Below are positions 655 through 23,219 of a stretch of DNA of 24,270 nt, in pieces. The stretch comes from Neocallimastix lanati (nom. inval.). Its lineage: Eukaryota > Neocallimastigomycota > Neocallimastigomycetes > Neocallimastigales > Neocallimastigaceae. Each line of letters opens with the position of its first letter. The stretch's first letter is position 1. The stretch covers positions 1 to 24,270 of the forward strand of contig JACVTC010000485.1 in assembly GCA_016946835.1 (NCBI GenBank), in the 5' to 3' direction. A program made the position numbers and the translations under genes. A model generated the notes under the pieces. That model had not been told where the DNA came from. It ran no database searches and worked only from the letters and a program-made list of their open reading frames with translations.

Positions 655-786
655 TCGTACAATCTGATAGTACACACTGTCTGACGTGCAGCTTACCTAA
701 TGGTGTCATGCCACGCGTGTGCCACGATTACTATATTCAATATAAAATATAGCAGTTCAGAGCCACTAGCCCAATTACTATGTAGG
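655..786 (-). other. GC-richer leader block, A2 copy
   Basis: This is a local rise in GC within an AT-rich leader, matching 8707-8840 in element A almost base for base. It contains short inverted repeats (GTAC/GTAC and CTATATT/AATATAG) and a CCACGCGTG segment. Retention in both copies may only reflect their recent common origin. The function is unknown. Confidence 0.45.
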
Positions 787-1062: not shown

Positions 1063-1290
1063 CTTACGCCTTCGGTGACGTAAGCTCCTTATTCGCCAGT
1101 GCTTGGAAAGTACCCGCACCTTCGTGTGTTGAAACGTTGAAGGCTGAACTATTATTACCGGGTCGGTAACCAAATACCTTCGTCTACTTTCCAATTAATC
1201 TCCAAATTAACTACTATTCAATAACCTACTATGAATAGAGTTAATTTGTTGCTATCTGAGAATACACTGTGTATGAGCTCTATCCGCTCC
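1063..1290 (-). ncRNA. Conserved structured leader RNA, A2 copy
   Basis: This 228-nt copy is almost identical to 9118-9345 of element A and shares its architecture with 12115-12345 of element B. It includes the 5' box GGAGCGGATAGAGCTC, the terminal hairpin with loop TCACCGAAGG and the CTGGCGAATAAGGA segment. See the element A entry for the helices. It is part of the retrotransposon RNA rather than a free-standing gene. Confidence 0.7.
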
Positions 1291-1480
1291 TTGTTATAAT
1301 TTTACAAAATTTGTTTTTTTAGAATCTTAATTTTACTTATTTAAAAAAAATTTTTTTTTATATATATATCAAACAAGCGCCATAGGTTAATCAAAGGATT
1401 AACGACTTACTTGTTTATCAATATAAAATAAAAAAAATTAAAAAAAAATCTATGTTATTTACTATTATTTCTATTTAATT

Positions 1481-1497
1481 CCCCGATATCTTCACCA
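1481..1497 (-). other. Primer binding site of A2 (candidate)
   Basis: On the minus strand the sequence TGGTGAAGATATCGGGG starts 6 nt downstream of the 5' LTR end. TGG at this position is the expected complement of a tRNA CCA end. It differs by one base from the element A site (TGGTGGAGATATCGGGG). The primer tRNA was not identified. Confidence 0.5.
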
Positions 1498-1503
1498 TAT
1501 AAA

Positions 1504-1843
1504 TGTTAAGGTTTTAGAGAATTAAATAAAAATAAAGTAAGAAACACAAATTTTATTTTTTTTATTTATTATTTTTATTTATAAATTTATTTTATTTTAT
1601 TTTATTTTATTTTATTTTATTTTATTTTATTTTATTTGATGATATTTAAAAATTAGTAGCAAAATTTACAACTATTTATACTTTTTTTTTCAAGGCATAA
1701 AAGTTGTTCTTGCCACTAAATTACATTTTATTATTATTTTTCTTTTTATATATAAAAACTATTAAATTTAAATTGATTTTTATAATCAATTATATAAAAT
1801 TTAATTATAACAATATAAATAAAATACATTTATAATATTAATA

Positions 1844-1889
<46 letters not shown>

Positions 1890-2376
1890 CTATCTAAAAT
1901 ATTACTAATAAGAATTTATTTAATTGGCTAAAATTTTTATTACAATCTGTTAAAATATTCAAATAAAAATAAAAATACTATTCTAATATAAAGGTTTTTA
2001 ATAAAATAAAATATTTTTCAATATAAAATAAAACATTTCGATATAAAATTTTATAATAAAAGTTAAAATATAATATATAAATTTTTAATTATCAATATAT
2101 AAAAATATTATTAATACAAATTTTCATTATTAATATAAAAATAAAAAAATAAGATTTATTATTAATATTGTTAATATAAGTTTTAAATATATAAAAATAT
2201 TACTATTAATATAAGATTTAATATAAAAATTATAAAGTTTAATATAATTTTTGATCTAATTTTTAATCTTTGAATTTAAAAATTTATTAAAGTACAAAAA
2301 TAATAATGTACACATAATGTATTAGAAATAAATCGTAGATTTAATTAAGAATGCATTATTTAGTACATTCTTATCA
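1504..2376 (-). repeat. 5' LTR of element A2
   Basis: This 873-bp LTR is bounded by TG...CA and belongs to the same family as 2381-3246 and 9561-10423. It is set apart from those two by an uninterrupted TTTTA pentanucleotide tract near 1586-1637, by AGTAAGAAAC instead of AGTAAAGAAAC near the start, and by a T run of 37. It therefore belongs to a different element rather than being a duplicate created by recombination within A. A candidate minus-strand TATA box lies at 1673-1680. Confidence 0.92.
1673..1680 (-). promoter_or_regulatory. TATA box in A2 5' LTR
   Basis: TATAAATA on the minus strand, about 170 nt before the LTR end, is placed as expected for the U3/R boundary of an LTR promoter. 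It is conserved in all four LTRs of the A and C families in this window. Confidence 0.6.
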
Positions 2377-2380
2377 TTAA
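2377..2380. repeat. Target-site duplication TTAA, left of element A
   Basis: TTAA lies exactly between the end of the A2 LTR (2376) and the start of the element A 3' LTR (2381). The same four bases follow the other end of element A at 10424-10427. A 4-bp duplication is within the 4-5 bp usual for Ty3/gypsy integrases. Confidence 0.75.
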
Positions 2381-2714
2381 TGTTAAGGTTTTAGAGAATT
2401 AAATAAAAATAAAGTAAAGAAACACAAATTTTATTTTTTTATTTATTATTTTTATTTATAAATTTATTTGATTTTATTCGATTTTATTTTATTTTATTTT
2501 ATTTTATTTGATGATATTTAAAAATTAGTAGCAAAATTTACAACTATTTATACTTTTTTTTCAAGGCATAAAAGTTGTTCTTGCCACTAAATTACATTTT
2601 ATTATTATTTTTCTTTTTATATATAAAAACTATTAAATTTAAATTGATTTTTATAATCAATTATATAAAATTTAATTATAACAATATAAATAAAATACAT
2701 TTATAATATTAATA

Positions 2715-2759
<45 letters not shown>

Positions 2760-3246
2760 CTATCTAAAATATTACTAATAAGAATTTATTTAATTGGCTA
2801 AAATTTTTATTACAATCTGTTAAAATATTCAAATAAAAATAAAAATACTATTCTAATATAAAGGTTTTTAATAAAATAAAATATTTTTCAATATAAAATA
2901 AAACATTTCGATATAAAATTTTATAATAAAAGTTAAAATATAATATATAAATTTTTAATTATCAATATATAAAAATATTATTAATACAAATTTTCATTAT
3001 TAATATAAAAATAAAAAAATAAGATTTATTATTAATATTGTTAATATAAGTTTTAAATATATAAAAATATTACTATTAATATAAGATTTAATATAAAAAT
3101 TATAAAGTTTAATATAATTTTTGATCTAATTTTTAATCTTTGAATTTAAAAATTTATTAAAGTACAAAAATAATAATGTACACATAATGTATTAGAAATA
3201 AATCGTAGATTTAATTAAGAATGCATTATTTAGTACATTCTTATCA
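2381..3246 (-). repeat. 3' LTR of element A
   Basis: 866 bp, TG...CA, apparently identical to 9561-10423 outside the T run at 2719-2754. It shares with that LTR the interrupted pentanucleotide tract (TTTGATTTTATTCGA) that the A2 LTR lacks, which pairs these two as one element. It starts 18 bp beyond the pol stop codon, with the purine tract in between. A TATA box is at 2545-2552 on the minus strand. Confidence 0.95.
2545..2552 (-). promoter_or_regulatory. TATA box in element A 3' LTR
   Basis: TATAAATA on the minus strand, in the same LTR position as at 9725-9732. In a 3' LTR it could drive read-out transcription into the adjacent A2 LTR. Confidence 0.5.
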
Positions 3247-3262
3247 AGATGCCCCGACGAAG
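3247..3262 (-). other. Polypurine tract region of element A
   Basis: On the minus strand the stretch CGTCGGGGCATCT abuts the 3' LTR (TGATAAG). Element C has the same arrangement (GTGGGGGCATCT then TGGTAAAG). The block GCTTGAGTCTT..GGGGCATCT is conserved between the two elements and overlaps the end of pol. The purine run is short and interrupted by CATCT, which is unusual for a plus-strand primer. Confidence 0.5.
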
Positions 3263-3264
3263 AC

Positions 3265-6200
3265 TCAAGCTTCTCTGTAAGCGGAGTTAAACTTTACTAA
3301 ATTTTTAAAATGAACATTCCTATCGAGTTGTTTCCCAGTTTTCTGATCGATTAAGGTTGCCGTGTTGAATTGAATTTTTAAAATTTTAAATGGTCCATTG
3401 TAATATGGTTCTAGCTTAGTGCGGCTAAAGTTTCTAACAAGAACAAGATCACCAGCCTTTAATTCTTTTCCTTTTTTCATACTTATTTGTTCTTCTCGTC
3501 TTGTTGCCCAATACTTGTTAGCATTCTTCACATTTTCGCATGCTTCTCTAGTCCATTGATAATGACGAACAAATTTTTCCATTAAGATTTCATCATATGA
3601 TTTACCTGCATTTTCAATTGTTCTTATGGCTATATCATAAGGCTGTTGGTCTTCTCTTCCATATACTAATTCAAAACTAGAATGTCCAGTAGCTGTATTT
3701 TTGGTAGTTCGAAGTGCCCATAAAGCAGAAGGTAAAACTTCATCCCAATCTTGATTTTTCCTTCCTAATAAACGGAGTAATTTTCCAATTTCTTTATTTC
3801 GATTTTCAGTAAGGCCATTTGATTCAGGGTGGTAAGTAGCTACAAATTTAACATATACATCATAAAGATCAAGAAAGATTTTAGTCATATCAGAAGTGAA
3901 TTGGACTCCATTATCAGTAGTAATAACTTGAGGTACACCATGTCTTGCAAAAACGTTTATTAAAAATTTAATTATATCAGAGGAAGTTATGTTTTCAGTG
4001 GGTTCGGCTTCAACCCATTTGGTAAAGTAATCAACAGTTACTATAATATATTGATTATTATTTCTTGTTTTTGGTAACGGTCCTATAATATCTAATCCTA
4101 AATGCACAAAGGGACCCTCCACTTTAGTTGGATGGTTTTCGGTTGGTTCTGGATATGGTTGAGGACGATTTAATTGGCATTTTTCACAATTACTAACAAT
4201 TCTTTTGATATCTTTAATCATATGATTCCAATAAAAGTTTTTCTTAAGTCTTTGATATGTTTTGTAATATCCTTCGTGGCCAATATTATGAGCTTCTAAA
4301 ATTAATTTAAACCTTTCATTTTCGTCCGTTATTAATTTTCTATAATTTCCATTGTCGATAAAGTAATCTTCACCATCAATAACAGTAAACTTTTCATTAA
4401 TAAATTCCTTTATAACCTTAGATAATAATTCTTCATTATTTCCATTAGTAATTTTTGTTAATAATATCTTTCTCTCTTCCTTACTTTTCATTCTTGAAAG
4501 AGCATCAGCTAACACATTCTTTTTGCCTGATTCATATTTTATATTAATTCCAAGCATACTAGCGGTTAGACACCATCTTGTTTGCCTTGCATTCAAAGGT
4601 TCTTTATTCTTAAATAAACCAACTAATGGTTTATGATCTGTGTAAATAGTTGTAGGTAATGGATTTCCTTCAATATAAGATTTAAATTTAGTCATACAGT
4701 AAAATAAAGCTGTTCCTTCCAAATCTGTGATACCATAATTCTTTTCAGTTTTCTTCAAACTTCTACTTATAAAGTGTATTGGATGCTCCTTACCGGTTTC
4801 TTCTTCTTTTTGTAAAAGAACTCCACCAATTCCATTATACGAAGCATCAGTTCTAATGATAAAAGGTTTGTCAAATGACGGAAATTTTAGAATAGGTGCA
4901 TTGATTAATTTTTCTTTTAGGAGTTCAAAGCTTTCTTGTTGTTCTTTATTCCATTCATATTTAGTATTCTTTTTCAATAATTTACATAAAGGTGAGGTAA
5001 TTTGAGCATATTTAGGGATAAAGTCACGATAATACCCTATTGCTCCTAGAAATGATCTTAATTCATGAATTGATGAAGGTGCTTCCCACTTCTTAATAGC
5101 TGTTATTTTACTTTCCATGGGACTTAATCCTTTAGTAGTAAGTTTGTGACCTAATACATCAACTTCAGTTTGAAGAAAATGGCACTTTTCAATATTAATT
5201 TTTAACTTGTTTTCTTTAAATACTTCTAATACTTGTTTAATATGAATTAAATGTTCTTCGATACTTTTTGAATAGATCAAAACATCATCAATAAATACGT
5301 ATACAAATTCACCAATAAAAGGGAATAAAATTTTATTCATTTCTCTTTGGAAGGTTGAGGGAGCTCCAGTAAGTCCAAAAGGCATAACCTTAAATTGATA
5401 ATTTCCAAACTTAGTAGTGAAAGTGGTTACTTCAACGCTTTCTTCATCCATTAAGATTTGGTGAAAACCAGAAAATAAATCAAGAGTTGTAAATATTTTA
5501 GCTCCTCCGAGACTATCAAAAATTTCATCTATATATGGAACTGAATAAGAATCTTTTTCTGTCATATCATTGACTTTTCGGTAGTCAATGCACAAGCGCC
5601 ACTTTCCATTGTGTTTTAGAATGAGTACTACTGGAGATGACCATTCTGAACAGGATGGTTCTATCAATCCTTTCTTAATAAGCTTTGTAAGTTCTTCTTT
5701 TAAGATATCTGATTTTAATTTAGTTAACCTATAACTTCTTAATTTTACTGGCTTTGCATTTGCTTTCAAACGGATCTTATGTGGTGAAAGTTTAGAAGGA
5801 GTTAGTTCTTCTGTTGAAGTGGCAACTATGTCAATCATTTCTTTGAGAATTTTAATAATTTGTTCTTTATAATCTTTATTTAAGGTACTTAAAAATTCAT
5901 CACTCTCAATAAATTCCATTGGAGTTAATTCCTTTATAATTTCCTTTTCATTATTCGTTTCTTCAACTTTTCTAATAGTGCAGATTATACTTTCTTCATC
6001 ATAATATTGATTATTTATTTTAGCTATTTCTTCGTATTCACTTTCTGACAAAAGTTTACATAGACTGTTTAAGGTTGGATGAATAAATAAACAATGATCG
6101 ATTTGAGTTTTAAAGTTTATTAACATATCATAAAATGAGTCTTCTTTCTCAATAATTCTAAAGTCCGCATTAAATTCATAATTATTAATTTTTACTGGTA

Positions 6201-7080
6201 ATCGAACAATAATTCCTTCCGAGTATTCTTCATCTTGTGTTGCTAGTTGGATTCTTCCACGACTTTTTCCAACTGTTTCATATTCACCAGGTAATTTATC
6301 AAAATACTGCTTAGTAACGATGCTTAGGTTACTACAAGAATCAATTAAAAGTTTTCCTAGTACTCCGTCAACACTTGCATCAACCATTGCTAAGTCTTCT
6401 TCGGCTACTTCATTACTTTTACTTATGTAGCTATGGTCATAGTTATTTACTAATAAAGTTCGTGCTATTACATTGTCTACAGTTCCAATTATTTTAGACT
6501 TTTCTAACTTTAAACCTTGAGTTAATTGTGAACGAATTTTAGGACATGCATTCAAGAGTTGACCTATCGTAATACTGGATTTAAGATTATTTAAATCATC
6601 CATAATATTGTAAGGTTCTTTATTATTCATCATTTTGATATTCCTTTTTACTAATTGAGTATTTCCATTATTAGTTTCCTTAGTTTTTGTTGAAATTAAT
6701 TTTTCCAAAGTATTAGTTTTATTTTGTTGATTATCTTTATTCATTTCTAGATCTTCTATTTCATTATCGATTACAAGTATATCTTCAGATTCAACTTTTT
6801 CCTTTCCTTTTGATGAATAATTGTTGTTTTCTTCTTTACTTTCTCTTACTCTTGTCATATTTCTTAATTCCTTTTCTTTTTGTTTTTCTTTGTTAATATT
6901 TGGTTGAGTTAAAATTGAAGGAAGTATTTGATTTTTATAAACTTTATTTGGTTTATTATGCAGCTCATTTTCTTTCTTCTTTCTTAAAGCAGGAGTTGCA
7001 AAAGGACGTGGATTATCTTTTAAACTTTTATGTACTTTCTTGGAATTATTTTCTTCTTTTTCGCTGTTATTATCATTCAT
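3265..7080 (-). CDS. pol: Pol polyprotein of element A: protease, reverse transcriptase, RNase H, integrase
   Basis: A 1271-codon ORF from the first ATG; the frame is open a further 63 codons upstream to the gag frameshift site, so the product is expected as Gag-Pol. Residues 1-230 are a basic, Asn/Lys-rich linker. Protease is near 235-330, with D247 in IDSC where most retropepsins have DSG or DTG. RT is about 430-650, with D534 and FIDD at 596-599. RNase H is about 735-865, with D745, E788, D815 and D859. Integrase has an HHCC zinc finger (H931, H935, C965, C968) and a D997, D1056, E1092 triad with 35 residues between the last two. A GPF module follows at 1229-1231. There is no chromodomain, unlike element B. 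No internal stop or frameshift is seen. Product identity is certain; the protease variant is the only catalytic oddity. Confidence 0.96.
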   Translation of the reverse strand: MNDNNSEKEENNSKKVHKSLKDNPRPFATPALRKKKENELHNKPNKVYKNQILPSILTQPNINKEKQKEKELRNMTRVRESKEENNNYSSKGKEKVESEDILVIDNEIEDLEMNKDNQQNKTNTLEKLISTKTKETNNGNTQLVKRNIKMMNNKEPYNIMDDLNNLKSSITIGQLLNACPKIRSQLTQGLKLEKSKIIGTVDNVIARTLLVNNYDHSYISKSNEVAEEDLAMVDASVDGVLGKLLIDSCSNLSIVTKQYFDKLPGEYETVGKSRGRIQLATQDEEYSEGIIVRLPVKINNYEFNADFRIIEKEDSFYDMLINFKTQIDHCLFIHPTLNSLCKLLSESEYEEIAKINNQYYDEESIICTIRKVEETNNEKEIIKELTPMEFIESDEFLSTLNKDYKEQIIKILKEMIDIVATSTEELTPSKLSPHKIRLKANAKPVKLRSYRLTKLKSDILKEELTKLIKKGLIEPSCSEWSSPVVLILKHNGKWRLCIDYRKVNDMTEKDSYSVPYIDEIFDSLGGAKIFTTLDLFSGFHQILMDEESVEVTTFTTKFGNYQFKVMPFGLTGAPSTFQREMNKILFPFIGEFVYVFIDDVLIYSKSIEEHLIHIKQVLEVFKENKLKINIEKCHFLQTEVDVLGHKLTTKGLSPMESKITAIKKWEAPSSIHELRSFLGAIGYYRDFIPKYAQITSPLCKLLKKNTKYEWNKEQQESFELLKEKLINAPILKFPSFDKPFIIRTDASYNGIGGVLLQKEEETGKEHPIHFISRSLKKTEKNYGITDLEGTALFYCMTKFKSYIEGNPLPTTIYTDHKPLVGLFKNKEPLNARQTRWCLTASMLGINIKYESGKKNVLADALSRMKSKEERKILLTKITNGNNEELLSKVIKEFINEKFTVIDGEDYFIDNGNYRKLITDENERFKLILEAHNIGHEGYYKTYQRLKKNFYWNHMIKDIKRIVSNCEKCQLNRPQPYPEPTENHPTKVEGPFVHLGLDIIGPLPKTRNNNQYIIVTVDYFTKWVEAEPTENITSSDIIKFLINVFARHGVPQVITTDNGVQFTSDMTKIFLDLYDVYVKFVATYHPESNGLTENRNKEIGKLLRLLGRKNQDWDEVLPSALWALRTTKNTATGHSSFELVYGREDQQPYDIAIRTIENAGKSYDEILMEKFVRHYQWTREACENVKNANKYWATRREEQISMKKGKELKAGDLVLVRNFSRTKLEPYYNGPFKILKIQFNTATLIDQKTGKQLDRNVHFKNLVKFNSAYREA

Positions 7081-7241
7081 TTTTCTTTTTACAGCATTTA
7101 TAATGATATCATCCTCACTTTCAGTTGTGTCACTAAAATCAGATTCTTCAGATTCTTCGTTAAAGGAATTATTATCAATTGGAGTATTCTTAGTAAAAGT
7201 ATTATTTTGTAAATTATTTAATGAAGCTATTGTTTTGTCAT

Positions 7242-7275
7242 TGGGAGTGCTTCTGCTCCCATTTAGAAGTTTAAA
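7242..7275 (-). promoter_or_regulatory. Programmed -1 ribosomal frameshift signal, gag/pol of element A
   Basis: The gag frame reads TCT TTA AAC TTC TAA, so the heptamer T TTA AAC (7269-7275) fits the X XXY YYZ rule and is a well-known efficient -1 slip site. After a 7-nt spacer comes a hairpin, TGGGAG/CTCCCA with an 8-nt loop (7242-7261). A -1 slip enters the pol frame, which is open for 63 codons before the first ATG of pol. The same heptamer, spacer length and stem occur in element C, with the outermost pair changed from T-A to A-T. Whether a longer pseudoknot forms was not tested. Confidence 0.85.
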
Positions 7276-8168
7276 GACTTTTTGGAATATATTTCTTTTT
7301 TATTTTTTTCCATAATCTTATTTAATTGAGGGCAATAGTATGAGTAATGACCTTCTTCCTTACAGAAGAAGCAAGTTTTAACGGATAAATTTCTCATTTT
7401 CTGGGTTGATTCTTCTATAATATCTTGAGGTTTCAGTTTATTATTTGTTTGACTTGTTTGGAAAGTTTCGTTTCTTCTTTTAGGATAAAGTCTTGAAGTA
7501 GTACTGTTTTGATTATTTTGATTATGCTGGGAATTATTAACATTATAGGTATTAATATTATTGTTCCTTACAGAAAGTCTATCTACTTTCTCGGCAATTT
7601 TGAAAGCTTTCTCCATACTTATATCATCTTTAAGGGATAATTTCTTCCAGGCTTCATAATTATTTTGAATAGAATCAATATAATCTAGTACACCGATGCG
7701 CTTTCTTCTCTTTTTATCAAGTTTAGTGTACAAAGTTCTATATCTTACATTAAAGTCCTTAATCTTTTCGTTTCTTTTAATTCGCATTGCACGAAGTTCT
7801 TTAAGAAGTAAATTTTGGTCTTCTTTAATACCGTAAAAATTTTCAAGACTTGAAATAATTTTTTCAAGAGAAGGAAATTTATCATCATCAACATTTTCTT
7901 CTTCATCATCTTCTTCTTCATCTGATGAATCATCACTTTCATCATCACTATCTTCTCCCAAATCTTCAATAACGCGTTGTACTTCACCAGAGCTGGTAAG
8001 TAAACAAGCATTAAATATTGTTTCCGGATCTGTGATACCTTGTATCTTGATCCAAAGTTTTAATTCAGTAGCCCAGGACTTTATATCTAAATTGTCCTTG
8101 CTAAGCTTCACTATGTCTCGTAATTCTTTCTTTAATTCTTTAAAACTTAAAGTACTTTTAGTAGACAT
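7263..8168 (-). CDS. gag: Gag of element A
   Basis: A 301-residue structural protein that should form the virus-like particle and bind genomic RNA. The N-terminal half is helical and charged. Around residues 70-100 there is a run rich in Asp, Glu and Ser. The C-terminal nucleocapsid part has one CX2CX4HX4C zinc knuckle at 266-279 (CFFCKEEGHYSYYC), followed by a basic tail. Its start (MSTKSTLSFKELKKEL) aligns with that of the C gag, supporting the chosen ATG. The stop codon lies 5 nt beyond a -1 slippery heptamer that gives access to pol. The element C homologue has the same layout at about the same length. Confidence 0.93.
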   Translation of the reverse strand: MSTKSTLSFKELKKELRDIVKLSKDNLDIKSWATELKLWIKIQGITDPETIFNACLLTSSGEVQRVIEDLGEDSDDESDDSSDEEEDDEEENVDDDKFPSLEKIISSLENFYGIKEDQNLLLKELRAMRIKRNEKIKDFNVRYRTLYTKLDKKRRKRIGVLDYIDSIQNNYEAWKKLSLKDDISMEKAFKIAEKVDRLSVRNNNINTYNVNNSQHNQNNQNSTTSRLYPKRRNETFQTSQTNNKLKPQDIIEESTQKMRNLSVKTCFFCKEEGHYSYYCPQLNKIMEKNKKEIYSKKSLNF

Positions 8169-8350
8169 TTCGTTTTTAGTTAATAATTTTTTTATTGTAA
8201 ATTAACGAGGTTATTAAATACGAATAAATTTGAAAGTCCAACTTTAAAAATATAATTTAACAAGTAATTTAATATCGAATCAAATTTTAAAACAATATAT
8301 CTTAGTAATTTTTGAAAATAATAATTTTATTTGCTTTCTTTAGTAAGTAT

Positions 8351-8539
8351 AAGCTCGAAATCCTTATCGACAACTTAGTAGAAATTATAAAGCACGAGGT
8401 TCTTTTCGACTACTTTTTTAAGAATAATTTTAAGTTCGAAATCTTTATCGACAACTTAATAGAATAATTTTAAGTTCGAAATCTTTATCGACAACTTAAT
8501 AGAATATTTTTCAAGCTCGAAATCTTTATCGACCACTTG
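8351..8539 (-). repeat. Tandem hairpin array upstream of gag, element A
   Basis: Five units with a period of about 40 bp (starts near 8351, 8390, 8432, 8472, 8512). In leader RNA a typical unit reads AAGT-TG-TCGA-loop-TCGA-ACTT, an 8-bp stem with a 2-nt bulge and an 8-nt loop. The second unit is divergent. Element C carries an analogous array at the same place with different stem sequences. Gag binding or packaging is a guess based on position. Confidence 0.75.
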
Positions 8540-8706
8540 AATTTTGTAATTTAGTATATTTGTAGTAATAAATTTAGAAGCAAAGTTTTATTTATTATTT
8601 TCACCTTTCAAAAATTTTTCTTTTTAAACGATAAATATTGTATTGTTATAGCTAATAAAATTATTAATTAATTATAATTATTAAATACAAAAAAATAATC
8701 TTTATT

Positions 8707-8840
8707 GTCGTACAATCTGATAGTACACACTGTCTGACGTGCAGCTTACCTAATGGTGTCATGCCACGCGTGTGCCACGATTACTATATTCAATATAAAA
8801 TATAGCAGTTCAGAGCCCACTAGCCCAATTACTATGTAGG
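8707..8840 (-). other. GC-richer leader block, element A
   Basis: This block stands out from its surroundings by composition and carries short inverted repeats (GTAC/GTAC, CTATATT/AATATAG). It is shared with A2 (655-786) but not recognised in B or C. No ORF or known RNA class was identified. Confidence 0.45.
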
Positions 8841-9117
8841 ATAAACTTAATCCGATAATCTATGTACGGAATAAAAAAAATTTTAAAAGTATTCAATAAT
8901 ATTTTTATTAACTAATAAAAATTAACTAAAAACACAATATTTTCAAAGTAAATTAAGATTCTATTACAGGAATTATATAACAAATAAAGTACCAGTAATA
9001 AAAAAAAAATAAAAAAAATTTAAATGGCGAAGTTAGCCAAAGTCTGATACTTTATATAATAAAGTGCCTTATAACTAGCACAAAGAAAAGTAAAAAAAAT
9101 TATATAAAAAAAACAAT

Positions 9118-9345
9118 CTTACGCCTTCGGTGACGTAAGCTCCTTATTCGCCAGTGCTTGGAAAGTACCCGCACCTTCGTGTGTTGAAACGTTGAAGGTT
9201 GAACTATTATTACCGGGTCGGTAACCAAATACCTTCGTCTACTTTCCAATTAATCTCCAAATTAACTACTATTCAATAACCTACTATGAATAGAGTTAAT
9301 TTGTTGCTATCTGAGAATACACTGTGTATGAGCTCTATCCGCTCC
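9118..9345 (-). ncRNA. Conserved structured leader RNA (element A copy)
   Basis: A 228-nt domain in the leader, shared in architecture with element B (12115-12345) despite little overall identity. In RNA order: the box GGAGCGG-TAGAGCTCATA; a small hairpin ATACA/TGTAT (9317-9329); a two-part stem (outer 9259-9266 with 9295-9302, inner 9269-9275 with 9287-9293) presenting AGTAGGTTA in its loop; a long-range 10-bp helix TTGGAAAGTA/TACTTTCCAA (9240-9249 with 9158-9167) closing further hairpins; the single-stranded box CTGGCGAATAAGGA; and a terminal hairpin CTTACG/CGTAAG with loop TCACCGAAGG (9118-9139). In B the stems differ but still pair. I do not recognise the class; group I, hammerhead and HDV-like cores were considered and not found. 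Confidence 0.75.
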
Positions 9346-9427
9346 TTGTTATAATTTTACAAAATTTGTTTTTTTTTTTGAATCTTAATTTTACTTATTT
9401 AAAAAAAATTTTTTTTATATATATATC

Positions 9428-9473
9428 AAACAAGCGCCATAGGTTAATCAAAGGATTAACGACTTACTTGTTT
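9428..9473 (-). other. Hairpin just downstream of the primer binding site, element A
   Basis: AAACAAG/CTTGTTT encloses TTAATC/GATTAA with a 4-nt apical loop and a large asymmetric internal loop (TAAGTCG opposite CCTATGGCG). An identical structure is present in A2. Its placement between the primer binding site and the conserved RNA suggests part of the leader fold. Confidence 0.55.
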
Positions 9474-9537
9474 ATCAATATAAAATAAAAAAAATTAAAA
9501 AAAAATCTATGTTATTTACTATTATTTCTATTTAATT

Positions 9538-9554
9538 CCCCGATATCTCCACCA
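9538..9554 (-). other. Primer binding site of element A (candidate)
   Basis: Minus-strand TGGTGGAGATATCGGGG begins 6 nt downstream of the LTR end. It would pair with a tRNA 3' end of ...CCCGATATCTCCACCA. The acceptor strand fits, but the T-stem register is ambiguous, so the tRNA was not assigned. The 6-nt gap is larger than the 0-3 nt usual for such sites. Confidence 0.5.
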
Positions 9555-9560
9555 TATAAA

Positions 9561-9894
9561 TGTTAAGGTTTTAGAGAATTAAATAAAAATAAAGTAAAGA
9601 AACACAAATTTTATTTTTTTATTTATTATTTTTATTTATAAATTTATTTGATTTTATTCGATTTTATTTTATTTTATTTTATTTTATTTGATGATATTTA
9701 AAAATTAGTAGCAAAATTTACAACTATTTATACTTTTTTTTCAAGGCATAAAAGTTGTTCTTGCCACTAAATTACATTTTATTATTATTTTTCTTTTTAT
9801 ATATAAAAACTATTAAATTTAAATTGATTTTTATAATCAATTATATAAAATTTAATTATAACAATATAAATAAAATACATTTATAATATTAATA

Positions 9895-9936
<42 letters not shown>

Positions 9937-10423
9937 CTATCTAAAATATTACTAATAAGAATTTATTTAATTGGCTAAAATTTTTATTACAATCTGTTAA
10001 AATATTCAAATAAAAATAAAAATACTATTCTAATATAAAGGTTTTTAATAAAATAAAATATTTTTCAATATAAAATAAAACATTTCGATATAAAATTTTA
10101 TAATAAAAGTTAAAATATAATATATAAATTTTTAATTATCAATATATAAAAATATTATTAATACAAATTTTCATTATTAATATAAAAATAAAAAAATAAG
10201 ATTTATTATTAATATTGTTAATATAAGTTTTAAATATATAAAAATATTACTATTAATATAAGATTTAATATAAAAATTATAAAGTTTAATATAATTTTTG
10301 ATCTAATTTTTAATCTTTGAATTTAAAAATTTATTAAAGTACAAAAATAATAATGTACACATAATGTATTAGAAATAAATCGTAGATTTAATTAAGAATG
10401 CATTATTTAGTACATTCTTATCA
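9561..10423 (-). repeat. 5' LTR of element A
   Basis: 863 bp, TG...CA, matching 2381-3246 except for a T run of 33 instead of 36 (9899-9931). The minus-strand TATA box is at 9725-9732. The U5 side carries a TTTTA pentanucleotide repeat. The outer edge is followed by TTAA and then a tRNA-like sequence. Confidence 0.95.
9725..9732 (-). promoter_or_regulatory. TATA box of element A promoter
   Basis: TATAAATAG on the minus strand, about 165 nt upstream of the LTR end, predicts a transcript with a short R-U5 of roughly 130 nt. It is conserved at the same place in the other LTRs, including the diverged LTR of element C (16832-16839). Confidence 0.6.
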
Positions 10424-10427
10424 TTAA
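10424..10427. repeat. Target-site duplication TTAA, right of element A
   Basis: TTAA directly follows the 5' LTR of element A and matches 2377-2380 at the other end. Confidence 0.75.
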
Positions 10428-10438
10428 CTAGTAAATTA

Positions 10439-10511
10439 GAAACTATGGTTCAATGGTAAGTTACCATAACTATCGGGCTGAACCCTTAGGGTTCGACACC
10501 CACTCTTTCCA
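10439..10511 (+). pseudogene. Degenerate tRNA-like sequence (Pol III A and B boxes)
   Basis: The A box TGGTTCAATGG (10446-10456) is a full match to the eukaryotic tRNA consensus. The B box GGTTCGACACC (10490-10500) matches 10 of 11 positions. Their spacing of 33 nt is normal for a tRNA. Setting T8 at 10446 puts position 1 at 10439 and the discriminator base at A10511. The acceptor arms GAAACTA and TCTTTCC pair at only 4 of 7 positions, and the D, anticodon and T stems are poor, so this is more likely a tRNA pseudogene or a tRNA-derived SINE head than a working tRNA. A T-run terminator follows. No anticodon can be assigned. Confidence 0.5.
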
Positions 10512-10513
10512 AA

Positions 10514-10529
10514 TTTTAATAACTTTTTA
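10514..10529 (+). terminator. Candidate Pol III terminator after tRNA-like sequence
   Basis: TTTT at 10514-10517 and TTTTT at about 10524-10528 follow the tRNA-like sequence by a few bases, as expected for RNA polymerase III termination. T runs are common in this DNA, so this is only supportive. Confidence 0.35.
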
Positions 10530-10559
10530 TTTATTATAACTAGAATATTAAAGAAATTA

Positions 10560-10599
10560 CTAGTGTTTATCGGTTAAACAATTGAACCGATAAAACTAG
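10560..10599. repeat. Inverted repeat / perfect-looking hairpin
   Basis: CTAGTGTTTATCGGTT and AACCGATAAAACTAG form a 15-bp stem with a single bulged base around a 9-nt loop. It stands alone in AT-rich spacer. It could be a MITE remnant or a transcribed hairpin; no duplicated flanks were identified. Confidence 0.6.
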
Positions 10600-11010
10600 A
10601 AAAATCTATTTTATTAATATTTTTTATCATTTTTTATCTAAGATTCATTTTCTAGAAAGAAAACTTGTTTTCTTTAATTTTCTTTTATTTCTAATAATTA
10701 ATAATAACAACTGATAACTTAAAATAATTAATTTTCCTGAAAAACTATAAATAGGTGTAAAATTTCATAATAAAATATTTTTACTTGTGCTTTTATTAAT
10801 TAATTTTAAAGTAATTTAAAATATTACAATGATTAATTAATAAAATAATAATTTATATTTCTACTAATAAAAAAAAACTTATTTTAATAAAACATATTTT
10901 GAATTACTTTAGTGTCGAGAACCTTTTGTGTAAAAAACCTTATAACAATCTTAAGTAACATTAAGATTTGTTACAATAAAAGCACCCTTTGACAAAAAAC
11001 ACGAAACCTT
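10600..11010. other. AT-rich spacer with isolated TATA motif
   Basis: No gene was found. A plus-strand TATAAATAG lies near 10746-10754, similar to the LTR TATA boxes but not inside a recognised LTR. It might be a relic of the element B 5' LTR; that is a guess. A small hairpin AAAGAAAA/TTTTCTTT lies near 10657-10676. Confidence 0.35.
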
Positions 11011-11017
11011 CTCGAGA

Positions 11018-11109
11018 CAAATCTACTCTTTTGGAATCTACTCTTTTAAGAATCTACTTTTTTGGAATCTACTCTTTTGGAATCTACTCTTTTGGAATCT
11101 ACTCTTTTA
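11018..11109. repeat. Tandem 15-bp repeat
   Basis: About six copies of GGAATCTACTCTTTT, the first two or three with small changes. The repeat gives a short reading frame coding for a repeated GIYSF, which is a by-product of the repeat. Confidence 0.85.
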
Positions 11110-11396
11110 AAACTTTAAACAACTCTTGGGCTACCGCTAATAATTATATTATCACCAAAACAATATTTTTTCTGTGGAATACTTCCTTAAAAAATTCTAT
11201 TCTTGAATCTAGTATCTTTTGGATTATTTCTTTTTATAGGTTACTACCTTTCTTTTGTATTCCTTCTTTACTCAAATTCTTGCCCAATTTTTCCTTAGAT
11301 TCTTCGCTTACTCTTTATTATAAACATACTTTCAAATTAAATTCTATCTACCTTTGGATTCCTCTTTGAAACTCTACCTATACCTTTTGGATTTTA

Positions 11397-11398
<2 letters not shown>
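11110..11398. other. Pyrimidine-rich spacer, no supported gene
   Basis: The plus strand is rich in T and C. A 126-codon open frame covering 10989-11369 starts at TTG, spans the 15-bp repeat and has no recognisable domain, so it is not called. The stretch ends in a 34-bp A run, which could mark the 3' end of a retroposed transcript. Confidence 0.5.

Positions 11399-11432
<34 letters not shown>
11399..11432. repeat. A homopolymer (34 bp)
   Basis: A pure A run directly follows ATTTTAAT. It may be a poly(A) tail of an unidentified retroposed sequence or simple slippage. Confidence 0.9.
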
Positions 11433-11437
<5 letters not shown>

Positions 11438-11489
11438 TTATTAAATGAATATATAACCCTAACCCTATATTCTATAATATATTTAGGTG

Positions 11490-11795
11490 AATGAATAAAT
11501 AGTATCTTAGATAAATACTATAATAAAATTAATTGAACAAATGTACTATTTATTAGATAAATTTATAGTAAAATTAATTGAACAAATATACTATTTATTA
11601 GATAAATTCTATAGTAAATTAATTGAACAAATATATTATTTATTAGATAAATTTATAGTAAAACTAATTGAACAAATATACTATTTATTAGATAAATTCT
11701 GAAAGAAAATTAAGTGGACATATACATAATTTTAGATAAATTTAACTATAATCTAAGTGAAAGAATATAATATATTTTAGATAAATTAATACTTA
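11490..11795. repeat. 45-bp minisatellite
   Basis: The marker GAACAAAT recurs at 11535, 11580, 11625 and 11670, an exact 45-bp period. Each unit contains CTATTTATTAGATAAAT. Degenerate units extend on both sides (GTGGACATATAC, GTGAAAGAATAT). There is no coding potential. Confidence 0.88.
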
Positions 11796-11830
11796 AAACT
11801 AAATACATATATCAACAATTAGCTAAATAA

Positions 11831-11838
<8 letters not shown>

Positions 11839-11869
<31 letters not shown>
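11839..11869. repeat. A homopolymer (31 bp)
   Basis: A second long A run, again followed by TTTTTAATAAA. The two A runs bracket the 45-bp minisatellite. Confidence 0.9.
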
Positions 11870-11873
<4 letters not shown>

Positions 11874-11951
11874 TAATAAAATTTACTAATAAGGAGAATC
11901 TGTATAGACAATCCTTATTCTCTTTTATTCTTTTTATTTAATTCCTTAATT

Positions 11952-12038
11952 TTGTGTTGGCCCTCGCTGGTGGGCTCAGACGTAAGCCCTACATCTCAGC
12001 TCTTTCAGTTAAAATTCACTGAAAGAACAGCAACACAA
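11952..12038 (+). other. Structured leader block I upstream of element B
   Basis: TTGTGTTG (11952-11959) pairs with CAACACAA (12031-12038), closing two hairpins: GGGCT/AGCCC (11972-11989) and CTTTCAGT/ACTGAAAG (12002-12025). This makes a compact three-way fold in a GC-richer island. It lies about 510-600 nt upstream of the element B start codon. No counterpart was found in A or C, and the RNA class is not recognised. Confidence 0.55.
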
Positions 12039-12114
12039 TAAAAAGAAAAAGAATTTTTAATTTTTAATAAATTTTCGTGTCAATATTTTTTAAGGTAATA
12101 CGATAAATATACTA

Positions 12115-12345
12115 GGAGCGGTTAGAGCTCATAAACAGAGTTTCGGCGTATATTAACTAGTTTCAGTAGGTTAGAAACTATAGTCGTTAATTATTTGAAT
12201 ATAAACGGGCTTCAAAACCCTAGAGTGTAAAGAGAGTGTGGATTAAAAGAGAACCACATCCTACCAACCAACTTCAACAGTTCGGTGGTTGCTCTATTCG
12301 AATAAGCTCTGGCGAATAAGGAACTATAGTCACCGAAGGCTATAG
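12115..12345 (+). ncRNA. Conserved structured leader RNA (element B copy)
   Basis: A 231-nt domain with the same order of parts as 9118-9345 of element A. The box GGAGCGGTTAGAGCTCATA opens it. A small hairpin AAAC/GTTT (12133-12143) follows. Next comes a stem TTAAC/GTTAA around TAGTTTC/GAAACTA (12158-12180) with the identical loop AGTAGGTTA. The long-range helix TTATTTGAAT/ATTCGAATAA (12191-12200 with 12296-12305) precedes the box CTGGCGAATAAGGA. The terminal hairpin CTATAG/CTATAG (12324-12345) has the identical loop TCACCGAAGG. Loops and boxes are conserved while stem sequences are replaced by complementary ones, the signature of RNA structure under selection. It sits about 200 nt upstream of the ORF. 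Confidence 0.75.
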
Positions 12346-12548
12346 GTTGGTCGTGAAGGTAAAGCGACATTAAAATATATAGTTTTTAATTTTATTTTGA
12401 GGTCTAGTATATACCTCTAGTTAGTAGCTTTTGCCGGTTTTTTTTTAGTTGTAAGGCATTAAAAGCGAAATTTAAATTGTATTTACCTTAAATAAAAGTT
12501 CTTCAATAATTAAATTATCAAATAAATCTATTTTGAAAAAGCAAGAAA

Positions 12549-15449
12549 ATGGAAGAAGATACCTTTTTAAATGCCAGTGCTACCAATAAAGATGGATTCG
12601 CTGGAGATCGTCGTTACTTTAAAGGATTTTTAGCAAAAATGAATCTAATATTCATGCTTGATCCCGAACGATTTAATAATGATCCAATAAAGGTTGCGTA
12701 TATCATTTCTAGACTCTACGGCTCTGCAATGAACTGGGCTGCTACTTTAATTGAAAATAACGATCCATGTTTAAATAACTATCAACAATTCACCTCAAGA
12801 TTTAAGGCTACTTTTGGGAGCTACGATTCGACTTTCATTGCTAACCAGAAATTGAAGACAATTAAACAAAGACGCATCGGTGAAATAACAAACTATATTC
12901 TCGAATTCAATAGATATTCTGACGAATCTTCGTGGAATGAAGAAGCTAAAATGGATGCTTTCCTCAATGGACTTAACGACCAAATTGCTACCAAAATATA
13001 TGAAATGTTTCCAGGACCAAGATCTCTTTTCGCATTACAAACTATTGCCTCTAGACTAGATAGTCGTATTGCTGCGCATAGACAATTTTCTAATCCACAA
13101 AACAGATCAAATAATAATAATAATAATGATAACAGAAATAATAACAGAAACAATAATAATAGAAGACAAAATAAAGGGAAAAAGCCTTTCAAATTCAATA
13201 CCCGAGGTCCTTTGTCTAATGAAGAAAAGGAAAGAAGAAGAAAAGAACATCTTTGTGCCTATTGTGGATCAGCTAACCATTCCCTTGACCATTGCCCACT
13301 AGTAAACAGAAATAAAGCCTCTTCAAGCAGTTCTCATATCACTAATCTTGAACCTAAAACCATTCCAAGAATAAGAATTTCTGATCAACCCGATGTAAAG
13401 CTACCAATTTTTGAATTCTCTCTTAATGTTTCCAATATTTCTACAAAAACTAAAATTCTTCTGGACTGCGGCTCTCAACTTAATTTAATGGATGTATACT
13501 TCGCAAAAGAAAACAATATTCCTTACTCTAGTGAATGTAATCTCCCTAACGTATCTGGAATCGGTGGTATTCAGTCAATCATAGGTAAAACTGCACCAAT
13601 ATCCTTAAAATATAAAAACCACATATGTAAAACAAGTTTCTATGTTGTTGACCTTCCTTCGTATTGTGCTATTTTAGGCATTGACTGGCTAGAAACTCAT
13701 AATCCCACTATAGACTTTGCCTCAAAAGAACTCTCTTTCAAATCCAACTATTGTATTTCCAATTGTCTTGTACTTCCCAGCGCCTTCACTACTTATGCTC
13801 CTTTAAATACTATTAAAAAGAATGATAAAGAAGAAGAAGATAAAGAAAGTAATAAAGTAAATAAATCATTACCAAAGAAATTACTTCCATTTAAGGATAT
13901 TTTTAGCGAAATATATGCGAATGCACTTTCTCGAAGACCTGATTATGCATCAAATGAAGAAGAACTGTCCTCTGATATTCCTTTCAACGTCTTAAAACCT
14001 GAAAATTTTTGCGCTACCACTTCCTTTGCCTCTTTAAATGATCAAATACTCCATGAATACAAGAAAGATAAATATTATAATGAAATCTGCAAAAAACTCA
14101 ACTCTAAAGAAGACTTCCCAGAATCTATTAAATTTTCTTTAAGCAACAACTTCTTACTCGTTGATGGAAAAATTTATGTTCCCCTTAACTGTCGTTCTTC
14201 CGTATTAAATATCTGTCATGACTCCCCATCTGCTGGTCATTTTGGCTTCAAGAAAACTTTCTCCTTAATCAATCGTGACTTTTGGTGGTCATCTATGCAA
14301 AAAGATATTAAAGACTATATTAAATCTTGTGAAATCTGTTGTCGTTCAAAGGATTCTAGACACAAACCTTATGGATTTCTGAACCCACTAGAAATTCCTG
14401 ACCGACCTTGGACTTCGCTTTCCATGGATTTCATCACTGATCTCCCTTCATCTAATGGATATACTTGTATTTTTGTTGTTCTCGATAGATTCACAAAAAT
14501 GGGTCACTTCATCCCATTTCCTAACGTTCCTTCTTCTGAAGATACTGCTAAGGCATTCATGACTCATATTTTCAGACTTCATGGATTACCAAATGAAATT
14601 CTTTCCAATAGAGGTACTCAATTCACTTCTAAATTCTGGACTTCTATTTGCAAAACTCTCAATATCTCAATGAAACTTTCTTCTCCCTTTCACCATCAAA
14701 CTAACGGTTTAACGGAGAGGGTGAACTCCGTTGTAGAACAATTTCTCAGATGTTACTCTAATTTTAAAGGTTCAAATTGGCATAATTATCTATTCCTTGC
14801 TGAATTCTGCTACAACAATTCTATTCAAGAATCATTAAATAAATCACCTTTCTACGCAAATTATGGTTACAACCCTCGCTTCTCACCAGCTGTGCCAAGT
14901 TCTATTGATGTTCCGCGTGCTGAAGAATTTACAACAAACTTAGCGAAACTTTTCAAACAATTAAAAGAAAATTTAAAACAAGCAAGAAATAAACAAGAAA
15001 AATTCGCCAACCAACACAGAATTAAAGCACCTGAATTCAAAGTAAACGACAAAGTTTGGATAAACAGTTCACTCATATTAAGAAATAAAAATAAAAAATT
15101 AAAACCAAGAAAGTTAGGACCTTATAAAATAATTGAAAAAGTCTCTCCAGTAACATACAAAATTGATTTTCCAAAAAATATAAAAATACACCCAATTATC
15201 CATGTATCAGAACTTGAGCCATACTATAAAGACAATTTTAAAAGAAAAAAGGAACCTCCACCTCCAATTATAGTTAATGATGAAGAAGAATATGAAGTAG
15301 AAGAAATACTTGATAAAAGAAAACATTATGGAAAGATTCAATATCTTATTAAGTGGAAAGGATATCCTTTATCTGAAGCATCTTGGGAACCGGAAGAAAA
15401 CCTCAACTGTCCAGAAATACTCAAAAAATTTAATAAATCAAACAAATAA
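12549..15449 (+). CDS. Element B: RT-less Gag-protease-integrase-chromodomain polyprotein (Ty3/chromovirus type)
   Basis: One 966-codon ORF with a good start context (AAAATGG). Residues 1-180 are a retrotransposon Gag capsid domain. An Asn-rich stretch (188-207) and a CX2CX4HX4C knuckle (236-249, [14 protein letters not shown]) follow. Protease covers about 285-390, with D306 in LLDCGS and ILGIDWL at 375-381. At about 447-465 the sequence passes from KDIFSE, which normally precedes RT, straight to [10 protein letters not shown], which normally ends RNase H, so RT and nearly all of RNase H are missing in frame. Integrase spans about 550-760: H557, H564, C594, C597, D627, N687 where the second catalytic Asp belongs, and E723 with 35 residues between. 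A GPY module (857-859) and a chromodomain (914-963, W936 and W946) end the protein. It is a non-autonomous element or a co-opted gene; sequence alone cannot tell which. Confidence 0.92.
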
Positions 15450-22726: not shown

Positions 22727-22896
22727 GGACTCAGAAAACCCTCTGACAATCCAATTCTTTATTCCAATAATAATTCAGACTCAGAATCTCTCTCTGAAAA
22801 TCTGATAAATTAATTCAGACTCGAAAACACCCTTCGAAAATCTGAAACTAAAAAAAAAATAAATTCAGACTCAAAAACGCAATTTGAAAATCTGAA
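22727..22896 (-). repeat. Tandem hairpin array upstream of gag, element C
   Basis: Four units starting at 22727, 22774, 22814 and 22864. Each has the frame TTCAGA-TTT-stem-loop-stem-G-TCTGAA in RNA sense. The inner stems are TCAGA/TCTGA (twice), TCGAA/TTCGA and TCAAA/TTTGA, so both arms change together. In the first unit the outer stem is GGA/TCC instead. Loops are 6-7 nt and differ. The position just upstream of gag matches the array of element A. Confidence 0.8.
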
Positions 22897-23219
22897 GCTT
22901 TTTATTATGAATTTTAATGTTTATTATATTCTCTTAAGCATTAATACACAAAATATGTATATCTTAATCTTTTTTTTTTTTTTAAATTTATTTGTAGTAA
23001 TAACTTCTTTATTTAATTTTATTTAATATATTTATTTCCTTTATTAAAATAATTAATATAACATAAAGCAAATTGTATAAATACTTAAATAATAATAATA
23101 ATGTATATTTATTTTTATTTTTATTTCTTTTTTGTATATATTTATTATTCTATTAATTCTTTGTTATAACATTCAATGAAATATTAAATAAAAAGTTAAA
23201 ATACAAGCCAAACTATATA

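Follow-up and report, generated by a model that had tools for sequence, protein, structure and literature searches.

The leaders of Ty3-like long terminal repeat (LTR) retrotransposons were analysed in a window that comprises an entire contig of 24,270 bases (JACVTC010000485.1), part of the 199-Mb assembly of the fungus Neocallimastix lanati. On its minus strand the window holds element A, a partial element A2 and element C, and on its plus strand element B; all of them are Ty3-like. A domain of 228 to 231 nt, termed X, lies ahead of gag, and it is almost certain that X is both a conserved RNA structure and a unit that has been exchanged between elements. X is one of several exchangeable modules ahead of gag, the others being Y, Z and, probably, U. 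As to their role, these modules may be interchangeable cis-acting leader RNAs that a host factor recognises, translation being the most likely purpose; a probability of about 0.4 is assigned to this tentative reading.

Fold, covariation and exchange of domain X

A preliminary description of the window, made without database searches, had placed X in A, A2 and B with lengths of 228, 228 and 231 nt, and its coordinates, boxes and helices all proved correct. The alignment of A with B scored 196.5, compared with 112.4 ± 7.0 (largest value 135.5) for 300 mononucleotide shuffles of B. The predicted fold consists of a P1 hairpin, a helix P2 that closes a junction, from which a long arm (P5) and a side hairpin (P3) branch off, a linker, and a terminal hairpin P4. 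With strands assigned by hand, helices P2, P3, P5 and P4 comprise 31 pairs, and all 31 were paired in both A and B. Of these pairs, 17 differed between the two elements in both bases, in no case was just one base changed, and 14 were identical; when the strands were crossed (5' strands of A with 3' strands of B, or the reverse), pairing fell to 16/31 and 18/31.

The closing helix P2 had been overlooked, and was revealed by the comparison of families A, B, D and G, in which its strands are CAGTGT/GCACTG, CAGAGT/GCTCTG, CAGAGT/ACTCTG and CTGAGT/ACTCAG, respectively. The box CTGGCGAATAAGGA had been regarded as unpaired; this holds for the linker GCGAATAAGGA, while the first letters, CTG, belong to the 3' strand of P2. 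The fixed unpaired linker of X reads GCGAAUAAGGA, and GCAAAUUCA in G. In all four families P4 is a stem of 8 bp (CTTACGTC in A and D, CTATAGTC in B, CTTAGTAT in G) capped by the hexaloop ACCGAA. Since the P1 stem is invariant in A, B and D it provided no covariation; another hairpin occupies its place in G. The P3 loop AGTAGGTTA was found only in the A and B leaders and the 7-mer TTCAACA in the A, B, G and C leaders. On its own, the hexamer ACCGAA can be found as well in the F, N, O and Q leaders, which are without X, and it is therefore meaningful only in its hairpin context. A possible pairing of the ACCGAA loop with UUYGGU in the P5 arm was seen by eye in A, B and D, and not in G.

For P2 and P4, 96.4% of the cells in eight rows were paired and 8 of 14 pairs showed double changes; none of 500 shuffles scored as high on any measure, and sliding one partner by 1 to 3 columns left only 19 to 45% paired. 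Related rows can exceed shuffles without any structure, so weight was placed on the double changes rather than on the excess over shuffles. The core covers only four families; each family is represented by closely similar copies, and damaged copies make up two of the eight rows. RNAalifold, given a six-cassette alignment and no structure, recovered P2 and P4. Two points weigh against the complete fold: RNAalifold did not return P3 and P5 from the X alignment, these two helices coming from hand pairing, and D and G have different hairpins at the P3 position. Overall, the stems of X have been replaced by complementary changes while the boxes stayed in place, and the proposal of a selected RNA structure is supported by covariation among families on the wider sampling.

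The exact 3' core of X gave 495 matches in the host genome (250 forward, 245 reverse), and its reversed control gave none. X had been thought to be confined to two families; five carry it, namely A, B1 (the B of the window), B2 and D by sequence, and G by its boxes and fold. Genome sampling yielded D as a third family, in which X has the same ends and a different middle. Searches for X with other P4 stems gave no match with the exact core and four near-identical matches at up to three mismatches, so that the fourth family, G, was reached only through its gag. Sixty X loci were fetched; eight places were fetched twice, and the set represents 51 distinct places among the 495 copies. The exact core was present in 59 of the 60 loci, the other (L046) having an altered P4 loop. 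In all 51 distinct places X precedes a gag (16 of A, 5 of D and 30 of B1 or B2, the last represented by 38 rows, 17 of B1 and 21 of B2), and no free-standing copy was found among them. In IMG/VR the exact core pattern gave no match, and none of 144 pattern matches was confirmed as a relative by gag alignment.

Exchange is most evident from B1 and B2. Their proteins are 38% identical over 370 residues, and nucleotide matches within roughly 3 kb around X were limited to one of 375 nt (93.6%) and one of 49 nt of coding sequence (78%). The shared unit, of approximately 370 nt, comprises X, a hairpin GAGGT/ACCTC and a V hairpin; both of these hairpins also occur in D, and G has the V box only. The interval 12115-12345 given previously thus delimits the domain itself, and the exchanged piece is longer, from 12104 to about 12474. 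With laxer scoring the match extended to about 12544 through AT-rich sequence and the 5' edge at 12104 was unchanged. X and V move as one unit between elements with distant proteins, a cassette transfer, and the earlier suggestion that an RNA part had passed between distant elements is borne out. The gag of A had no BLASTP match to that of B1 (best E value 2.2). In D and family N the upstream transcript aligns at 62% over about 1.1 kb, after which D carries X and Z, and no module was recognised in N.

No Rfam family reached its gathering score in the window, including any described internal ribosome entry site (IRES) family, and scans of parts at lax thresholds yielded either nothing or hits to other families below threshold, none of them relevant; the view that X matches no recognised class was sustained. 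A tRNA mimic was considered, since AGTAGGTTA and TTCAACA in A and B fit the D- and T-loop consensus; it was set aside as AGTAGGTTA is absent from D and G and TTCAACA from D. The P3 loop AGUAGGUUA is complementary to a segment of yeast 18S rRNA (ES9S). Such pairing was not used as evidence: the segment pattern had no match at up to three mismatches in the host assembly, which may lack rDNA, and the loop is absent from D and G.

Further leader modules and their distribution

Pairwise comparison of leaders identified Y (A-C, A-M, C-M and K-M) and Z (C-D, C-Q and D-Q). Y in A and C was 67% identical over 483 nt (E = 1.6e-53), the alignment continuing into AT-rich sequence. Double changes were observed in 17 of 31 pairs of the Y fold in five families and in 29 of 85 pairs of the Z fold in three. 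E carries the Y box and a further module, U, which is common to E and F by boxes identified by eye and was not recovered between them by blastn. Boxes and fold are the basis for assigning Y to E, U to both E and F, and X to G. Each module is a branched domain, 150-370 nt in length.

The gag of C is 53% identical to that of A, and E and F belong to the same lineage. The B1 lineage includes D (about 68% to B1 gag), Q (about 70%), K and M; K and M are 98% and 56% identical to protein P0080, which is 55% identical to B1 gag. X, Y and Z are each present in both gag lineages. The module order is X-Y in A, Y, an intervening stretch and Z in C (taken from two copies, L062 and that in the window, which were treated separately), Y-U in E and U in F. 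It is X-Z in D, X in B and in G, Y in K and in M, and Z in Q; no module was recognised in the N and O leaders.

Two other observations were made on these leaders. An ATG inside Y is kept in A, C, E and K and lost in M, in leaders that are otherwise poor in ATG, and in C, E and K it is followed by a stop after two further codons. Arrays of short hairpins, alike by eye, stand just before gag in A, C, E and F (the C copy at about 22730-22900, minus strand); each hairpin is built of an outer stem, GTC or TTC, and an inner stem. Such arrays are possible Gag-binding sites.

Features of the window and copies without reverse transcriptase

The features located in the window are listed in the table. 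The gag of B1 matched the families Ty3_capsid and Retrotrans_gag, and no Pfam family was matched by the gag of A or of C. Protein searches with gag returned mostly metagenome proteins; the named relatives were Neocallimastix, Anaeromyces and Orpsp1 (Orpinomyces). The primer-binding-site motif TGGTGRAGATATC of A is also present in the C, E, F and G leaders.

Table. Positions of leader features in the window (P3 and P5 by hand pairing)
Feature	Position	Strand	Remarks
Exchangeable cassette X+V, element B	12104..12474	+	375 nt, 93.6% identical to B2
Domain X, element B	12115..12345	+	as placed in the preliminary description
P1 hairpin GAGC-GGTTAGA-GCTC, B	12116..12130	+	
P2 5' strand CAGAGT, B	12136..12141	+	pairs with 12306-12311; covaries in A, B, D, G
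P3 hairpin, B	12158..12180	+	loop AGTAGGTTA 12165-12173; hand pairing
P5 5' strand, B	12191..12200	+	pairs with 12296-12305; hand pairing
Inner hairpin, B	12265..12291	+	loop TTCAACA 12273-12279
P2 3' strand GCTCTG and unpaired linker GCGAATAAGGA, B	12306..12322	+	
P4 hairpin, B	12324..12345	+	8 bp, hexaloop ACCGAA
V region, B	12399..12466	+	hairpin GAGGT/ACCTC 12399-12417; hairpin 12427-12466, loop GGTTTTTT..AGTTGTAA
gag-protease-integrase-chromodomain frame, element B	12549..15449	+	starts 82 nt after V hairpin; this copy without reverse transcriptase
Domain X, element A	9118..9345	-	P1 9330-9344; P2 5' strand 9319-9324; P3 9269-9293; P5 9240-9249 with 9158-9167; P2 3' strand and linker 9141-9157; P4 9118-9139
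Likely primer-binding site TGGTGGAGATATCGGGG, element A	9538..9554	-	upstream of X
Module Y, element A	8709..8862	-	common to C, M by blastn (K matches M), to E by box
Domain X, element A2	1063..1290	-	one base off A
Y box, A2	689..710	-	

Between A2 and A, at 1499-3246, two LTRs that are 98.5% identical lie head to tail. Another host contig (C19, about 1065-12417) has the same minus-minus-plus order and nearly the same spacing of X as the window, and may represent its other haplotype or a duplicate. At 10443-10505 (plus strand), 240-300 nt ahead of the TATA box of element B, there is a tRNA-like stretch that contains a GGTTCGA box; B2, N and O have similar stretches about as far from theirs (L011, L074 and L075). 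ARAGORN called no tRNA in the window, 10443-10505 included. In element B the region 11457-11834, ahead of X, contains a short telomere-like CCCTAACCC and a 45-nt repeat array. A stretch closed by GTGTTG/CAACAC (11954-12036, plus strand), which is probably branched, follows outside the part shared with B2.

Element B had been described as lacking reverse transcriptase (RT). This is true of the window copy and one other B1 copy, and a long-frame B1 copy encodes RT, which is 39% identical to the RT of A. When B1 gag was used as the query, 137 of 1597 candidates were scored. Among the matches listed, 35 places had a gag 88-100% identical, with 12 frames of 968-972 aa, three of 1404 aa and 20 of other lengths; of those listed at about 68% (D included) most had frames of 823-826 aa and a few of 1398-1406. 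RT was encoded in the long-frame piece of one D copy, was absent from the short-frame piece of another, and was present in two B2 pieces. Shortened frames that stay open from gag to integrase are common beside those of about 1400 aa; they measure 970 aa in B1, about 825 aa in D and 773 aa in Q, with RT loss checked in B1 and D. Loss of RT from B1 as an intron was rejected, as the 1.3-kb difference sits at a 3-bp ATG repeat and not at GT-AG. The idea that RT-less B1 needs B2 as a helper was weakened by the RT-bearing B1 copies; with such kin in the same family, RT loss does not define the family and is no argument by itself for packaging in trans.

Role of the leader modules

Twelve leaders, read from the inferred transcription start (from TATA boxes, or for E from the primer-binding site) to gag, contained 27 ATG compared with 160.8 in dinucleotide shuffles (ratio 0.17), and the U3 parts of the same elements contained 30 compared with 34.6 expected (0.87). 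When 13 leaders were divided into segments, with the ATG of the primer-binding site masked, there were 14 ATG inside modules (49.3 expected), none between modules (2.3) and two downstream (28.7). The part of the C leader in the window was less clean (9 compared with 17.7). Ribosomes thus seem to read the whole leader. The depletion disfavours a plain intron as well as an IRES acting as the sole route; it leaves room for modules that assist scanning, mediate shunting, have a dual role or act outside translation.

Modules shared by elements without recognisable Gag similarity would most simply be read by a host component. They may recruit the host ribosome or guide a scanning ribosome past the structured region of a long leader, and exchange may occur by template switching between co-packaged RNAs. 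Precedents come from viruses. IRES modules move between virus families (PMC7354566), and the shunt configuration of rice tungro bacilliform virus (RTBV) could replace that of cauliflower mosaic virus (CaMV), which the RTBV packaging region could not do (PMC5902531). For these reasons translation was placed slightly ahead of packaging. Viral IRESs resemble X in being large structured 5'-leader RNAs of several distinct classes, with invariant exposed loops, variable peripheral helices and modules moved between unrelated coding regions (PMC7354566). They differ in that X lies in fungal LTR retrotransposons and is known from sequence, upstream starts are depleted and the distance to the start codon is not fixed.

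Several results weigh against a role of the modules in translation. Counts of other triplets in the leaders were likewise somewhat reduced (CAT 0.63, TGA 0.79, GTA 0.83), so the drop in ATG is partly compositional. ATG is depleted upstream of the first module as well (12 compared with 65.7 expected) and in families N and O, which lack a recognised module (6 compared with 18.1); scanning from the 5' end therefore seems general, with no IRES required. Tolerance of upstream start codons, which an IRES would allow though not strictly require, was not observed, and the last module is separated from the gag ATG by anything between 81 and 595 nt. There are also families with two modules. Moreover, the step to a host factor is itself inferential, since one RNA could be accepted by the nucleocapsids of several elements.

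That last point leads to the closest rival, in which the modules form a psi-like domain for packaging, dimerisation or initiation of reverse transcription, the Gag or nucleocapsid reading the cassette on the full-length RNA. This is slightly less probable than a role in translation. Sharing of the domain would allow co-packaging and so explain both the exchange and the spread of RT-less derivatives; cassette-bearing copies with a shortened, RT-less frame are numerous (the absence itself was verified for two copies of B1 and one of D), and over the 3 kb compared no further noncoding stretch is common to B1 and B2. In A, C, E, F and G the modules stand downstream of the likely primer-binding site and ahead of gag; B and D also have the module ahead of gag, and no primer-binding site was identified in them. 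The structured 5' end of Ty1, Ty3 and HIV-1 RNA contains the sequences that serve tRNA annealing, dimerisation, cyclisation and packaging (PMC11381356), and this, together with position, keeps packaging a close second. The Ty3 and retroviral packaging region is, like X, a highly structured part of the 5' leader up to gag; retroviral signals act with the element's own Gag, whereas the module occurs with distant Gag lineages (PMC11381356). The same difficulty is posed by A and B1, whose Gags lack recognisable similarity, and by the approximately 38% protein identity of B1 and B2. RT-bearing kin in the B1 family mean that no foreign helper is needed, and the palindrome GAGCTC that overlaps P1 in A, B and D is absent from G, although palindromes were not searched for systematically.

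Partnerships with defective elements offer further support for a shared packaging signal. Non-autonomous pararetroviruses share noncoding sequences with their partners by recombination (PMC5491270), and BARE2 RNA of barley is packaged into BARE1 particles (PMC3735527). The pararetroviruses resemble the present elements in their long structured leaders, in noncoding exchange between elements of different coding content and in having defective partners, and differ in that here upstream starts are few, the modules form branched domains and RT-less copies have RT-bearing kin in their own family (PMC5902531, PMC5491270). BARE2 similarly retains the cis signals of a competent element; it is unable to make Gag, whereas here RT is lost, and exchange of several module types is not met for BARE in the accessible part of that source (PMC3735527).

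Host handling after transcription, by nuclear export or stabilisation of the unspliced RNA, likewise predicts host recognition and interchangeability across elements. It is nevertheless unlikely, given the placement ahead of gag in the places read and the lack of any Rfam export or stability element. A self-cleaving or self-splicing ribozyme would suit the compact fold and the invariant unpaired boxes, but is very improbable: no ribozyme or self-splicing intron family was matched in Rfam at gathering or lax scores, a cut between the primer-binding site and gag would part the two, and the depletion of ATG suggests that the leader stays joined to gag in translation. Least probable of all is a free mobile element, such as a short interspersed nuclear element (SINE), inserting in leaders, or similarity without RNA function. 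The 495 copies would suit mobility, yet all 51 places lie before a gag, the helices covary and Rfam gave no match. Neither of the outcomes that the preliminary description had set against its own proposal, an absence of covariation and the insertion of a SINE or a known RNA, was seen, the second being judged on those 51 places. The options it had listed for X (packaging, dimerisation, internal initiation or a ribozyme) have been narrowed only in part.

Exchangeable leader RNAs are known in viruses; a pool of several types in LTR retrotransposons is, as far as seen, new. No description of such modules in LTR retrotransposons was found in the literature searched, which mostly did not extend to subscription journals. 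It is conceivable, at somewhat less than even odds, that these leaders draw on a pool of structured RNAs, at least three and probably four in number, which are unrelated to one another, can be freely exchanged and plug into a host machine, most likely the ribosome. If so, the retrotransposons of one fungal genome would hold several undescribed RNA families, each module a new RNA class and X alone present in hundreds of copies, traded like cassettes. They would provide material for covariation analysis and probing, and a route to the host or element factor that reads the leader. They would also test whether the leader RNAs of LTR elements evolve independently of the coding regions, as they do in picornaviruses.

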